DNA from: Omnitrophica bacterium GWA2_41_15
Lineage (GTDB): Bacteria; Omnitrophota; Gorgyraeia; Gygaellales; Profunditerraquicolaceae
Length of the DNA stretch: 38,260 bases
Reading direction: 5' to 3'
Assembly (NCBI GenBank): GCA_919902045.1
Contig: CAKKSP010000036.1
Location: 1 to 38,260 of the forward strand
The notes under the pieces are model-generated. The model worked only from the letters and a program-made list of their open reading frames with translations, was not told where the DNA came from and ran no database searches. The translations under genes and the position numbers were made by a program. Of this stretch, positions 7,395 through 38,260 are shown piece after piece. Positions within the stretch are counted from its first letter, which is position 1, and each line of letters opens with the position of its first letter.

Positions 7395-8115
7395 GCGTTT
7401 TTTTGACTATAAATTTTTTGTAGTTGTTTTTCTACTGGCAGCAGTAGGATTAGGATTTTTTGTTTTTTTAAATTATTTGAAAAAAACTCAGTATTTTTGC
7501 GTGCGACAGGTAATCGTTAAGCCGGCGCAAGAGTGCGATCTTTCATATTTAAATGGGCGTAATATTTTTTCGCTTTGTCCGGATATTGAAGTACAGAAGA
7601 TACTCCGCAACTTTCCCGTATATAAAAGAGTTAAAGTGGTAAAAGTATTTCCGGACCGGCTTTTTATTGAAATTGTAAGAAGAAAACCAGTCGCGCTTCT
7701 TAAGCTAAGAAAATATTATTGCATAGATGATGATATGGTGATTTTTGAAGCTACTGCAGCAGATGCAGGAAACAAGCTTCCACTTATAGAAGGTTTTGAA
7801 AACAGAATTAGCGGAGCCCAAGCGGGAAAGCGTTATAATCATAAATTATTGGCTTACGCGCTTCAGGTAATCAAAGAATTCAGAAGTAATCCGGGTTTAA
7901 AGGGTTGGCCGCTACGTTTAGTAAACGCTAAAAGCGCGGTTGATTTTTCACTCTGGCTTGAGCCGGCAGTAGAAATAAAGTTTGGTATCGGAGATACAGC
8001 TAGAAAATTTAAAACTCTTTCTAATTTGCTGCCGCAGATAAAAAAGGAATGGAAGCAGATTAAATATGTGGAATTACGGTTTCACGAACCGATAATTAAA
8101 TTAAAAAATGAATAA
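7354..8115 (+). CDS. ftsQ: Cell-division protein FtsQ/DivIB (POTRA domain)
   Basis: Bitopic inner-membrane divisome protein. The 253-residue product has a short cytoplasmic N-terminus, one membrane helix at about residues 22-42, then a POTRA-like region (FCVRQVIVKPA, NIFSLCPDIEVQKIL, FPVYKRVKVVKVFPDRLFIE) and the beta domain starting RRKPVALLKLRKYYCIDDD, ending near residue 250. This layout plus its place between ddl and ftsA identifies it; pairwise similarity in this family is always low. It overlaps ddl by 41 nt and ftsA by 8 nt. Confidence 0.9.
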   Translation: MPKINVFPARQLLKRFFDYKFFVVVFLLAAVGLGFFVFLNYLKKTQYFCVRQVIVKPAQECDLSYLNGRNIFSLCPDIEVQKILRNFPVYKRVKVVKVFPDRLFIEIVRRKPVALLKLRKYYCIDDDMVIFEATAADAGNKLPLIEGFENRISGAQAGKRYNHKLLAYALQVIKEFRSNPGLKGWPLRLVNAKSAVDFSLWLEPAVEIKFGIGDTARKFKTLSNLLPQIKKEWKQIKYVELRFHEPIIKLKNE

Positions 8116-9427
8116 TTGTTTATGCGCATTGGATATCGGATCAAGTAAGATCTCTGCGGTAGTTGCCCAGATTAAAGGGGGAAAGCTGCATTCACTTTTT
8201 TGTGAAACTGTCCCTTCGCACGGGATTAAAAAGGGTGTAGTAATAAATTCTATCGATGTGGTTGAGGCTTCAGGCAGGGTTTTAAAAAGCCTTAAGCTTA
8301 AATCGCACCTGCCGATTAAATCTGTATGTGTAAATATTTCAGGGCAGGATATCATTACTAAACACAGCCGTGCCGTGATTCCGCTTGCAGAAAGAAGCAA
8401 TAAAGTCATAACTTTATCTGATATTAGGCAGGTAAACGAGCAGGCGCGGATTCTTGGGGCAAATCTTGAAGAAGAGATCATCCATTCGCTTCCTGTAAAT
8501 TATGCCATTGATTCGCAAGATAATGTTTTAAGCCCGTTGGGATTATACAGCCATCGCCTGGAAGTGGATCTTTATTTAATTTGCGCGAAGGCTTCTTCGG
8601 TTGAGAGTTTGGGCAGGCTTTTAAATCAGGCAGGTTATGAAGTAAGAGAGCTTTTATTTTCCGGATTAGCTACGAGCAGGATTGCCCTTCTTCCTTTGGC
8701 AACTGATGCGGATGTTACAGCTGAAGGATTAGAGGTGCTTTGTGATATCGGAAGCGATATAACCGAAATAATTGTTTTTAAGGAAGGGTTTATCCGGGAT
8801 ATTAAGATAATCTATAAAGGTGCAGACGATATAACCCGTGAGTTAGCCGAGAACTTAAAAATTCCCTATGAATTGGCAGAAGAAGTAAAGATTTCTTATG
8901 CTAGTGTAAGCGATGCTGAGCGGTTAGGTTCTGACCGGGAGATCCTGGTAAAGCGGCACAATCTCTATAAACCTATTAAGCAGAAAGCAGTAGTTGAGAT
9001 TGCAACTACTTCAGCAAAAAATCTGTGTCAGGAAATAAAAGAGGCTATCGATGCCCTGGCAGCTTCTCACCGGGTAAAAAAAGTAGTTGCTTGCGGCCGA
9101 GGGGTGCTGCTTGAGGGTTTTTTAGAGACATTAGAAAATACACTTAGCCTTCCCTGCAGATTGGCGCGTATTCGCGAGCCCGGTTATTTTTACGAAAGAA
9201 AAACACATTATCCTTATCAGGAAAATTTAAACGAACTTTTTGCCTTAGTTAATAAAGACCCGGCATTCTCCGGGCAAAAATATCTTTCTTACCTCACGGC
9301 CTTAGGGATGTTAGCGGAATCGCTTTATCCGAGGCAACAGGCAGTAGTTGCGTTTTCTTCATTAAGTAACAATCCTCTGGTGCGCTTTTTGCACAAAGCA
9401 AAAGAAATCTACCGCGAATACTTTTAA
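8108..9427 (+). CDS. ftsA: Cell-division actin-like ATPase FtsA
   Basis: Actin-fold membrane tether that normally links FtsZ filaments to the divisome. The 439-residue product has the phosphate-1 loop ALDIGSSKISAVVA near residue 8, the 1C domain (SVCVNISG, LPVNYAID), phosphate-2 DIGSDITEIIVF, and a C-terminal amphipathic stretch (VRFLHKAKEIYREYF) typical of the FtsA membrane-targeting helix. It is divergent: the adenosine-region glycines usually written GGxxIT appear as GADDIT, and the usual LTGG loop reads ACGRG. A 14-bp hairpin starts 4 nt after its stop, and ftsZ does not follow. Confidence 0.9.
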   Translation: MNNCLCALDIGSSKISAVVAQIKGGKLHSLFCETVPSHGIKKGVVINSIDVVEASGRVLKSLKLKSHLPIKSVCVNISGQDIITKHSRAVIPLAERSNKVITLSDIRQVNEQARILGANLEEEIIHSLPVNYAIDSQDNVLSPLGLYSHRLEVDLYLICAKASSVESLGRLLNQAGYEVRELLFSGLATSRIALLPLATDADVTAEGLEVLCDIGSDITEIIVFKEGFIRDIKIIYKGADDITRELAENLKIPYELAEEVKISYASVSDAERLGSDREILVKRHNLYKPIKQKAVVEIATTSAKNLCQEIKEAIDALAASHRVKKVVACGRGVLLEGFLETLENTLSLPCRLARIREPGYFYERKTHYPYQENLNELFALVNKDPAFSGQKYLSYLTALGMLAESLYPRQQAVVAFSSLSNNPLVRFLHKAKEIYREYF

Positions 9428-9430
9428 CTT

Positions 9431-9468
9431 CAGGGACACTTCTCAACTCAATCGGAGAAGTGTCCCTG
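9431..9468. repeat. GGGACAC palindromic repeat, copy 1
   Basis: Perfect 14-bp inverted repeat: CAGGGACACTTCTC at 9431-9444 and its complement at 9455-9468, with a 10-nt loop. No T-run follows, so it is not a classic terminator. A further CCTGTCCCT lies at 9482-9490. The words AGGGACACTTCT, CAATCGGAGA, AGTGTCCCT and CCTGTCCCT all recur, in a different order, in the copy at 27283-27341. Confidence 0.85.
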
Positions 9469-9508
9469 ACTCAATCTCAAACCTGTCCCTCCGAAGCTTC
9501 TACCTTAC

Positions 9509-9540
9509 GCCTAAAACCATACGAAGATGGTTTTAAAGGC
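9509..9540. repeat. Short hairpin
   Basis: AAAACCAT (9513-9520) pairs with ATGGTTTT (9527-9534) around the loop ACGAAG. Outer GCCT and AGGC extend the stem with a two-base bulge. It is part of the chain of hairpins between ftsA and yggS; no function can be assigned. Confidence 0.6.
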
Positions 9541-9600
9541 GCATTTAGAAAAGAAGCGAGGACTCTGGCGAGGCTCTGACGAGCCAGAGCAGTATTCTTG

Positions 9601-9813
9601 CTACGTATGTATAATTCTGCTCGCTCTAGTAGATTTTACCCTTCGGGGCCGCCAATGGTCTTTCGCATCCCAAGATTGCCACTCCGTGGCCTTGGGATAC
9701 CCTCACTGTTCAAGCTGCTTAGGCACCTGAATCTAAATATTCAGTGCCACCCCTATAATTAAAGTTAGGGGTTGGCTAAAATCTAAATTCGCTCGCTAGA
9801 ATTACATACGCAG
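9601..9813. repeat. 213-bp fold-back element with internal hairpins (MITE-like or structured RNA)
   Basis: The left arm at 9601-9638 and the right arm at 9777-9813 are imperfect inverted copies of about 38 bp; when the right arm is complemented both contain CGTATG, TAATTCT and AGATTTTA. Between the arms are three more hairpins. ATCCCAAG (9667-9674) pairs with CTTGGGAT (9691-9698) and contains a nested GCCAC/GTGGC stem. GGCAC-TGAAT (9722-9732) pairs with ATTCA-GTGCC (9739-9748). ACCCCTA (9749-9755) pairs with TAGGGGT (9766-9772). No transposase is present. It could be a non-autonomous mobile element or a non-coding RNA; the sequence alone does not decide. Confidence 0.6.
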
Positions 9814-9835
9814 GTGGTTCAATCTTGAGATGTAA

Positions 9836-9897
9836 AACTAGGGGACGCTTCGGTGGTTTTAGAAAATAAAACTATAGAAGCGTCCCCTAGTTTTTTT
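9836..9897 (+). terminator. Strong intrinsic terminator, repeat-derived
   Basis: A perfect 16-bp stem (AACTAGGGGACGCTTC at 9836-9851 and its complement at 9877-9892) ends in seven consecutive T (9891-9897). The 25-nt loop itself contains a GTTTTA/TAAAAC stem. The stem and U-run make this a convincing rho-independent terminator closing the dcw transcription unit or an RNA from the preceding element. The core GGGGACGCTTC resembles the GGGACACTTC of the repeats at 9431 and 27283. Confidence 0.85.
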
Positions 9898-9996
9898 AGA
9901 TTTAGTTTATTGGTCAACGGGTGACGGACGAGCCAAGTTCCCTTTGAGCGAACGGAATTTGCAGGAGATTTTGCTATGAAAATTCAGGCGATATTG

Positions 9997-10002
9997 TATA
10001 AT
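9997..10002 (+). promoter_or_regulatory. Putative -10 box of a leaderless yggS promoter
   Basis: A perfect TATAAT ends 7 nt before the yggS ATG at 10010, so transcription would start at or next to the A of the start codon. No Shine-Dalgarno is present between them. The -35 match is poor: TTGCTA lies at 9971-9976 with a 20-nt spacer. Position after a strong terminator supports a new promoter here. Confidence 0.5.
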
Positions 10003-10009
10003 AAATCCC

Positions 10010-35863: not shown

Positions 35864-36880
35864 ATGGAAAATTTTTTTTCAGCCTGGATAATTTTAATCA
35901 CGCTTTTTGTTTTGGCGGTGATTTCATTTTTCTTTTCCGCTTCTGAAACTGCTATTATCGGATTAAGTAAGATCCGGCTGCATCATTTGGTAAATAACGG
36001 GGTTAAGCATGCGCAATCCGTACAGCGGATTGTTACAAAGCTTGATAAATTTATTACCGCGATTCTCGTGGGAAATAATTTTGTAAATATTGCCGTATCA
36101 AGTATTATCACTGTGATTTTTGTGCAGTTTTTTGGCTATCGCTGGGGTGTTGTGCTGGCAACGTTTGTTACTGCTTTTTTTATCCTGATTTTATGCGAAG
36201 TTACCCCGAAGATTTTGGCGATTAAGCACGCGGAAAAAATAGCGCTTCTTATCAGCCCTTTTATGGAGCTGATCCTAAAAATATTTGACCCGGTTTTTCA
36301 TATTTTTACAACTATTAGTAATTCTATCCTGCGTATTTTTGGTATTGAAGCCTCAAAGAGGGCAGCGCTAATTACCGAAGAAGAGTTGCGCACAATGATT
36401 GAAATCGGTAAAGAGGAGGGGGTACTGACTGATCAGGAGCGCAAAATGCTTCATCGTATCTTTGAGTTTGGTGATACTCGGGTAAGTGAGGTCATGGCCC
36501 CAAAAGATAAAATCGTGGCAGTTAATGTAAACGCTTCTGCTGAAGAGGTGCTTGATATATTTTCTGAAGAGGGGCATGCACGTCTTCCGGTATATGAGGG
36601 AAGTAGCGATAATATGATCGGAATAATTTATGCCCGCGATTTAGTTTATATTTTAAGGGATAAAGGATTATTCCTTATACGCGATCTTCTGCGTGATGCT
36701 TATTTTGTGCCTGGATCATGCAGAGTAAATGAGCTGCTTAAAGCTTTTCAGGCAAAAAAACTCCAGATTGCTATTGTGGTTGATGAAAATAAAAAGACTC
36801 TCGGCCTTGTGACCCTTGAGGACCTGCTTGAGGAAATTGTCGGTGAAATCGAAGCCGAACCCCGTCTTGCTAATATTTGA
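35864..36880 (+). CDS. CNNM/CorC-type membrane protein with CBS pair, short form
   Basis: The 338-residue protein has a DUF21/CNNM transmembrane domain (about 1-170; FFFSASETAIIGLSKIRL and GNNFVNIAVSSI are the signature stretches) and two CBS domains (VSEVMAPKDKIVAVNVNASAEEVLDIF ... HARLPVYE and KKTLGLVTLEDLLEEIVGEI). It stops shortly after the second CBS, without the CorC_HlyC domain found in many relatives of ~420 residues. Such proteins are thought to move Mg2+ or other cations, or detect nucleotide; not provable here. It begins 1 nt after the M16 stop and has no visible Shine-Dalgarno. Confidence 0.87.
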   Translation: MENFFSAWIILITLFVLAVISFFFSASETAIIGLSKIRLHHLVNNGVKHAQSVQRIVTKLDKFITAILVGNNFVNIAVSSIITVIFVQFFGYRWGVVLATFVTAFFILILCEVTPKILAIKHAEKIALLISPFMELILKIFDPVFHIFTTISNSILRIFGIEASKRAALITEEELRTMIEIGKEEGVLTDQERKMLHRIFEFGDTRVSEVMAPKDKIVAVNVNASAEEVLDIFSEEGHARLPVYEGSSDNMIGIIYARDLVYILRDKGLFLIRDLLRDAYFVPGSCRVNELLKAFQAKKLQIAIVVDENKKTLGLVTLEDLLEEIVGEIEAEPRLANI

Positions 36881-36942: not shown

Positions 36943-36973
36943 AGTGTCACTAAAACTGGTAAAGGGGAGTAAA

Positions 36974-37351
36974 ATGATAAAAATTCTATTGGTAGAAGAT
37001 GAGAAACAATTAGTAGAGTGTTTGGTTTCATCATTAACTAGGCGCGGTTATGATGTTTATTCAGCAAGCAATGGTAAAGAAGCGCTTGAGATTGAAAAAA
37101 ATAATAATCCGGATTTGGTTTTTCTTGACCTGGGCTTGCCTGATATGGACGGACGCGAAGTGTTGAAGGGGATTAGGCTTTCTAATCCTACGCGTAAAAT
37201 AGTAGTTTTAAGCGGCTACAGTGATCCAAGCACGCAAAAAGAGCTTAAGGAGCTTGGAGCGGATTATTTTGTAAATAAGCCGATTGTCCCTGCAGTCTTG
37301 TATAAATTTATTGAGGATACTTTAGCCGCTGTTTCTTATCCAGAAGGATAG
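36974..37351 (+). CDS. Stand-alone response-regulator receiver domain
   Basis: ATG at 36974 chosen because GGGGAG precedes it; the frame is open upstream to 36917 through the leader hairpin, but that part is not receiver-like. The 125-residue product is a single CheY-like domain with acidic pocket VEDEKQ (E8, D9), phosphoacceptor D52 (FLDLGLPDMDG), S80 (VVLSGYSD) in the T/S position, and K102 (VNKP). There is no output domain, so it should signal through a protein partner. The next gene 42 nt downstream encodes a small H-box protein, and a coiled-coil membrane protein follows. Confidence 0.92.
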   Translation: MIKILLVEDEKQLVECLVSSLTRRGYDVYSASNGKEALEIEKNNNPDLVFLDLGLPDMDGREVLKGIRLSNPTRKIVVLSGYSDPSTQKELKELGADYFVNKPIVPAVLYKFIEDTLAAVSYPEG

Positions 37352-37352
37352 A

Positions 37353-37371
37353 CCTTCCTGTTAAAGGAAGG
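37353..37371 (+). other. Short hairpin between the receiver and H-box genes
   Basis: CCTTCCT (37353-37359) pairs perfectly with AGGAAGG (37365-37371) around GTTAA. It is followed by GGGAGGAG, the ribosome site of the next gene, not a T-run, so it is not a full terminator. It may modulate the relative expression of the two genes. Confidence 0.5.
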
Positions 37372-37393
37372 GCCTTGAGGGAGGAGATTTTTT

Positions 37394-37636
37394 ATGTCAA
37401 CGTTGCGCGAGCTTTTCCATGGTATCGGTAATAATTATAATTTAGTCTTAATAAGCGCAGGCGTAAGCGAAGAGTTGGTTGATTTGTGTCTTATCGAAAA
37501 AGACCCTGAAAAATTAAAAGTCACACTTGGGGAAATAAAAAGTAATTTAGCAAAAATTAGCAGTTCTGTGTTGGCAGCAGATGAGAAGCTGCGCCAGATC
37601 CACGAGCAGGTGCGTAAAGAAGATATAATTAAATAA
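37394..37636 (+). CDS. Small H-box protein, possible histidine phosphotransferase (DHp-like)
   Basis: The 80-residue product is predicted all-helical. Near the N-terminus it has LFHGIGNNYNLV: H9 followed by N13 four residues later, the H-x-I-x-N pattern of the HisKA H-box (as in HEIRN). A second helix of about 40 residues (DPEKLKVTLGEIKSNL through LRQIHEQV) would complete a two-helix DHp hairpin. There is no ATP-binding domain. A strong GGAGG upstream supports the ATG. With the receiver 42 nt upstream it could be a Spo0B/ChpT-like phosphotransfer partner; that is inference. An alternative is a docking protein with a chance H-box. Confidence 0.65.
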   Translation: MSTLRELFHGIGNNYNLVLISAGVSEELVDLCLIEKDPEKLKVTLGEIKSNLAKISSSVLAADEKLRQIHEQVRKEDIIK

Positions 37637-38260
37637 TGGATAGCGGGATCATATTAATTGGTTTATCGATGGCAGCAGAGATAATTGCTGCTATGTTTAT
37701 TTTGGCTGAAATTAAAACACAGCCCAAAGAAACTAAAGTCGGCCCTAAAATTTCCTTCCCGGAAGTTCAGATTTCTTCCCTTAAAAAAGAATTAGAAAAA
37801 ATAAATAAGGCTAAAACAGGTTTAGAGGAAGAGCTTAGCAGGCAAAAAGCAATTTCCGGGGCTGATTATACAGAAATAAACCGTCTAAAAAAAGAATGCC
37901 TTGAGACAAAAACAAACCTAGTTGGTAAAGAGCAAGAGTTGCAGAAAATATCTGCACAAAATAAAACATTAGAGATTCAGTTTAATGAGAAACAAATTGC
38001 GCTACAGTCCGCAGAAAAAGCTCAAGAGCCAAAGATTGAAAAATTAAATGCCGAATACTCGGAACTTAAAAATAAGCTGGTAATCAAAGAGCAGGAATTA
38101 AGCCAAAAGCAAAATTTACTGCAGGCGCTGGAAAAAGAGAATAATGATTTAAAAAATAAAGAAGCAGAAGTTACGCATGTTGTAACGGCAAAAAGGGCCA
38201 GTGAAGAAAGTAATATCCAGTCAATCAGAAAGAAAAATAAACGTAAAATTGGCGAGATAC
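37636..38260 (+). CDS. Membrane-anchored coiled-coil protein (3' end outside window)
   Basis: The ATG at 37636 overlaps the previous stop by 1 nt (TAATG); the frame is open to the end of the window, 208 complete codons. It starts with one hydrophobic segment (about residues 4-25, IILIGLSMAAEIIAAMFILA), then about 180 residues of charged, heptad-like coiled coil (LKKELEKINKAKTGLEEEL, LKNKLVIKEQELSQKQ). No domain is recognisable yet. Its junction with the H-box and receiver genes suggests a shared signalling complex. It could be the sensor or scaffold, or continue into a kinase or other domain beyond the window. Confidence 0.7.
   Translation, partial: MDSGIILIGLSMAAEIIAAMFILAEIKTQPKETKVGPKISFPEVQISSLKKELEKINKAKTGLEEELSRQKAISGADYTEINRLKKECLETKTNLVGKEQELQKISAQNKTLEIQFNEKQIALQSAEKAQEPKIEKLNAEYSELKNKLVIKEQELSQKQNLLQALEKENNDLKNKEAEVTHVVTAKRASEESNIQSIRKKNKRKIGEI

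Follow-up and report, generated by a model that had tools for sequence, protein, structure and literature searches.

A free-standing DHp-like protein next to a lone receiver in Omnitrophota: a candidate histidine phosphotransferase

Histidine phosphotransferases in described phosphorelays

The literature searched describes histidine phosphotransferases of the HPt and the degenerate-kinase types (PMC9981736). HPt proteins like YPD1 or the ArcB HPt act as histidine phosphotransfer intermediates, the role proposed here for an 80-aa protein from Omnitrophota. In contrast to the latter, an HPt is a monomeric four-helix bundle made of one chain. The 80-aa protein has only two helices and no match to HPt (PF01627), which was not found among the listed matches of its family either.

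Spo0B (about 190 aa) passes phosphate in Bacillus subtilis sporulation from a lone receiver (Spo0F) to another one or back, in the order kinase - receiver - DHp - receiver, and the DHp-type hairpins of its two subunits form a bundle. The 80-aa protein would be similar in these respects, but lacks the degenerate ATPase-like C-terminal domain of Spo0B. A further difference is that the genes form one operon in the Omnitrophota relatives. Caulobacter ChpT, likewise a dimeric phosphotransferase, carries its His on a 64-residue hairpin (aa 20-83) that forms the bundle bearing phospho-His (PMC3433190). However, ChpT has retained a degenerate CA domain with a part in the binding of receivers, and its donor is the receiver of a hybrid kinase, whereas the donor here would be a free receiver. 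PhyT/PhyP-type degenerate kinases of Sphingomonas, which are thought to be kinase-derived, mediate phosphotransfer from the single-domain receiver SdrG to PhyR (PMC5898713). These are full-length membrane kinases with a decayed catalytic domain and not bare DHp domains. For archaeal 'HisKA, no HATPase' proteins, a phosphotransfer or phosphatase role has been proposed; some of them carry PAS, GAF or REC domains, and a conserved kinase-receiver operon is not described in the available part of the source (PMC5847659). A bare DHp relay protein was not found in the open-access literature searched, and an earlier description elsewhere is possible.

The locus and the 80-aa protein

The window, i.e. 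the whole 38,260-nt stretch of DNA analysed, represents an entire contig of a 1.14-Mb genome that is 82% complete. Those upstream genes that were checked are housekeeping genes. At the contig end, a gene for a CNNM/CBS protein (35864-36880) precedes three genes on the plus strand. The first one (36974..37351, ATG at 36974) follows an RBS-like AGGGGAG (36963..36969) and encodes a single-domain receiver of 125 aa. This receiver was predicted to be complete and devoid of an output domain, which is borne out by a Pfam Response_reg match (E=3.7e-26, profile positions 1-110 of 111) and by the presence of all PF00072 residues: the acidic pair E8/D9, the phospho-acceptor D52, the S/T within SGY at beta4, and the Lys. 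The second gene (37394..37636, ATG at 37394), preceded by an RBS-like GGAGGAG (37380..37386), encodes the 80-aa protein. The third gene (37636..38260) codes for a membrane-anchored coiled-coil protein and is incomplete at the contig end; as noted before, there is a one-base overlap between its ATG at 37636 and the small gene's stop codon. A 7-bp inverted repeat (CCTTCCT / AGGAAGG) with a 5-base loop is located at 37353-37371 between the receiver gene and the 80-aa gene. No T run follows it. It may have an effect on the mRNA of the gene pair.

In another part of the window, ftsA (8108-9427) is followed by a 582-base gap without a good ORF (9428-10009) and an alanine-racemase-like gene. ftsZ is often found at this position. 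No tubulin/FtsZ match was obtained anywhere in the 82% complete genome, and loss, misassembly or incompleteness could be the reason.

The 80-aa protein reads H9-G-I-G-N13 and thus contains the H-x-I-x-N of the original prediction, which had also assumed two helices and no ATPase domain. AlphaFold2 yields a two-helix hairpin (aa 4-34 and 38-79, mean pLDDT 95.5) with H9, N13 and N16 on helix 1. A two-helix hairpin with the H-box His on helix 1 is a feature of the DHp domain of HisKA-type kinases. A Pfam HATPase match was not obtained, and the chain stops after helix 2. This means, both the HATPase_c domain needed for a histidine kinase and a C-terminal degenerate CA domain of the Spo0B/ChpT type are absent. 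The protein neither matches the Spo0E profile nor contains the SQELD motif of Spo0E-like phosphatases.

Searches in Pfam, NCBIfam and the PDB sequences did not reveal a family covering the 80-aa protein; matches in Pfam and NCBIfam were scattered and weak. PDB fold searches with the hairpin and with a tandem relative returned generic helical matches only. When a contig collection was scanned with the single sequence, nothing was found, while a six-sequence alignment retrieved relatives in Candidatus Omnitrophota. Among 98 relatives, the single-sequence search detected five places in four other genomes (G001, G018, G038 and, with two copies, G063). A six-sequence profile matched 31 of the 384 genomes of the class. 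About 26 of these 31 encode a small or a receiver-fused member; the remaining matches are kinases or due to chance. Since no copy was detected in most Omnitrophota genomes (by this profile, about 26 of 384 have one), the family is accessory. The 80-aa protein is a member of a conserved, unnamed DHp-only family found across Omnitrophota. Other stand-alone members comprise about 65-109 aa, apart from one 160-aa protein (L086), which by reading looks like a tandem whose second half is devoid of the His. This form is consistent with hairpin pairing.

In an alignment of 31 homologues, H9 is the sole invariant column, N13 is found in 30 and N16 in 29 rows, although the number of independent lines is below 31 because some rows are closely related (L052 and L053 are from one genome; L071, L073 and L075 from one genus). 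The family signature is R/K-x3-H-x-[LIV]-x-N-x2-N; the residue preceding the His is mostly F or Y. An H-x3-N motif by itself is expected by chance; judged from the aligned sequences, the strict conservation of H9, matched by no other column in the 31 relatives, is not. The original prediction had made its survival dependent on the conservation of H9 and N13 in orthologues and on a predicted two-helix dimer with a receiver interface; the alignment shows the conservation, and the AlphaFold2 model shows the hairpin.

Profile comparisons show that the 80-aa protein is homologous to the DHp domain of histidine kinases. In hhalign, the small-protein profile was aligned to the DHp domains of neighbouring kinases with a probability of 96.4 and a score of 53.2; the alignment spans 67 columns and places H on H and N on N. 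The best of 200 column shuffles scored 17.5, the best of 200 heptad-preserving shuffles 16.9 and reversed alignments 23-24. When the kinases already matched by the earlier profile were taken out, the probability was still 93.9. In addition, when the small-protein profile was run against all six reading frames of 285 Omnitrophota genomes, about 40 long ORFs were detected, nearly all of them matching from column 9 on. All 20 long ORFs that were fetched contain kinase DHp segments (SHQINNRF and similar) with His on His. In 19 of them a HATPase is located directly downstream, and the twentieth has none within the fetched stretch.

Operons in relatives, the coiled-coil protein and tandem hairpins

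At 20 of the 31 small-gene loci, the directly upstream gene on the same strand encodes a receiver, and in 16 of these 20 cases, the gene before it codes for a HATPase kinase. The downstream gene encodes a receiver or a double receiver at 16 of the 31 loci. For comparison, 30 receiver matches were counted in the entire 1.14-Mb genome to which the window belongs. The only kinase scanned in full, that of L051, comprises an N-terminal HisKA_7TM and a GAF region. Putative outputs in relatives include HTH_17-REC and REC-pseudoREC-GAF-HD proteins. Five family members are natural fusions with a receiver and have no ATPase domain (L065:7431-8078, L066:8302-8991, L067:3900-4568, L068:8758-9408 and L079:8640-9452).

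In the window, no kinase gene adjoins the small gene. The genome contains 11 HATPase matches elsewhere, some of which may be the donor kinase. The window receiver is most similar to receivers beside orthologous small genes (55% to that of L050, 47-49% to those of L052/L053). By this resemblance, the pair of receiver and small gene appears to have been inherited together, with the kinase gene missing from the window locus. Receivers upstream of the small gene carry the motif [ST]G[YF] more often (12/18 vs 21/66, Fisher p=0.013), an enrichment that is merely suggestive because the receiver sequences are related to each other. The motif resembles the FATGUY motif of relay receivers (PMC9981736).

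Two small His proteins, L072:8405-8674 (HDLNNLLNKI) and L078:8961-9173 (HTINNLLNKI), are encoded without an adjoining receiver or kinase gene. At two other loci, genes 5' of the kinase gene encode a FadL-like porin, an AMP-binding enzyme and an aminotransferase-fold enzyme (L073:1868-6183) or a carrier-protein-like ORF, a reductase and an FAD oxidoreductase (L055:4544-7315). From these genes, the relay may control lipid chemistry.

The last of the three genes fared differently. By eye, the coiled-coil protein has one hydrophobic N-terminal segment (about residues 5-26). Among 79 genomes of the family, only two weak coiled-coil matches and no specific relative were obtained, and none of the other small-gene copies has its gene as a neighbour. 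A conserved role as scaffold or sensor was therefore rejected, and the membrane protein probably does not belong to the core of the system. From the proposed minimal three-gene phosphorelay, the DHp-type two-helix protein with its conserved His and the lone receiver remain and recur together in relatives, whereas the coiled-coil partner is not supported. Moreover, the set is not complete: In relatives, the pair belongs to a longer operon of the order kinase - receiver - DHp - receiver(s), and the kinase is encoded elsewhere here.

A second type of small His protein (MANPLPNEKELY...HHIGND) is encoded in several of these or similar operons; its length is about 85 aa or, in a tandem form, about 160 aa. 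Tandem two-hairpin genes are L080:8040-8525, L081:8823-9320, L083:8301-8810, L085:2352-2981, L084:7789-8349 and the A2-type genes of L065-L068. The His is gone from the first repeat in all nine tandems, and the second repeat keeps it in eight; L084 has lost both. For a tandem, AlphaFold2 predicts two hairpins and a short N-terminal helix (pLDDT 85), and a single-site covalent bundle is possible. The second family (A2/A4, HHIGND) was aligned with DHp domains or the first family in the right register, with probabilities of 19-24 and scores like those of reversed controls.

A proposed relay and its alternatives

We propose that the 80-aa protein represents a DHp domain on its own, which acts as histidine phosphotransferase in a His-Asp-His-Asp phosphorelay, and estimate the probability of this reading at about 0.7. 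For this protein, we infer dimerization, receiver docking, phosphorylation of H9 and the direction of the flow. Two copies would pair via their hairpins to a four-helix bundle. A histidine kinase would phosphorylate the lone receiver at D52, and this receiver would dock on the bundle and hand the phosphoryl group to H9. From there, a second receiver would take it to generate the output; in relatives, this could be REC-pseudoREC, in some cases fused to a GAF and an HD c-di-GMP-phosphodiesterase-like domain, or HTH-REC. The order would be that of KinA-Spo0F-Spo0B-Spo0A, composed of separate small proteins with the 80-aa protein in the place of Spo0B. It is the gene order that points to a passage from receiver to receiver. 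An 80-residue form is physically plausible, because the ChpT hairpin forms a bundle (PMC3433190) and the isolated DHp domain of the kinase HK853 is a homodimer that binds its receiver (PMC5727384). With its length, the 80-aa protein is probably among the smallest phosphorelay go-betweens known.

The main rival is a DHp-derived receiver phosphatase, in which N13 would position a water molecule, H9 would assist and phosphate would be drained from the lone receiver. N13, conserved in 30 of 31 homologues, is located at H+4 and aligns with the T/N of the E/DxxT/N motif in HisKA phosphatases, so that the 80-aa protein might dephosphorylate receivers. Isolated HK853 DHp has phosphatase activity, which is reduced by H260A (PMC5727384), and such a role is among those proposed for the archaeal proteins (PMC5847659). 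However, the small proteins do not conserve the acidic residue of this motif: H+1 is D/E in 12 of 31 small proteins vs E/D/Q in 24 of 24 neighbouring kinases. A relaxed H+1 along with a retained His fits a lost need for autophosphorylation. In addition, the conservation of H9 is no less strict than that of N13, and further receivers are usually encoded downstream in the operons, as expected for a relay. Altogether, we consider a mere phosphatase unlikely; the counterpoints may be compatible with a bifunctional protein.

Less probable still is a kinase regulator that carries no phosphate and, like Sda or RetS, pairs with the DHp bundle of a kinase or, as decoy or antikinase, competes for the receiver. 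This would agree with the homology to DHp domains and with operons in which the closest relative is the DHp domain of the kinase. Nevertheless, a mere binder would not be expected to keep one invariant His while its surroundings vary. The window copy and several others lack a neighbouring kinase, and the fusions are to receivers, not to kinases. A small coiled-coil protein with a coincidental HxxxN motif, to which the scattered, weak Pfam/NCBIfam matches and the generic hairpins from the fold search might point, is highly improbable in view of the invariant H9, the retrieval of kinase DHp domains H on H, the shuffle controls and the receiver neighbourhood.

If the phosphotransferase reading is right, it has consequences beyond this locus. 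An ATPase-like domain is retained in the well-studied dimeric phosphotransferases; a natural and conserved protein consisting of DHp only would demonstrate that no more than the hairpin is needed in vivo for docking of the receiver and for the relay. It would also provide a very small module for phosphorelay engineering. More tentatively, and with odds somewhat below even, bare DHp dimers might be a third kind of histidine phosphotransferase in Omnitrophota, with tandems that lost one His as single-site covalent bundles. If true, the tandems would illustrate a route from a DHp dimer to a monomeric HPt-like protein, and a DHp-only phosphotransferase would make the emergence of HPt-like proteins from DHp dimers testable. 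A role is also suggested for this protein family, which is unannotated and belongs to an uncultured phylum.
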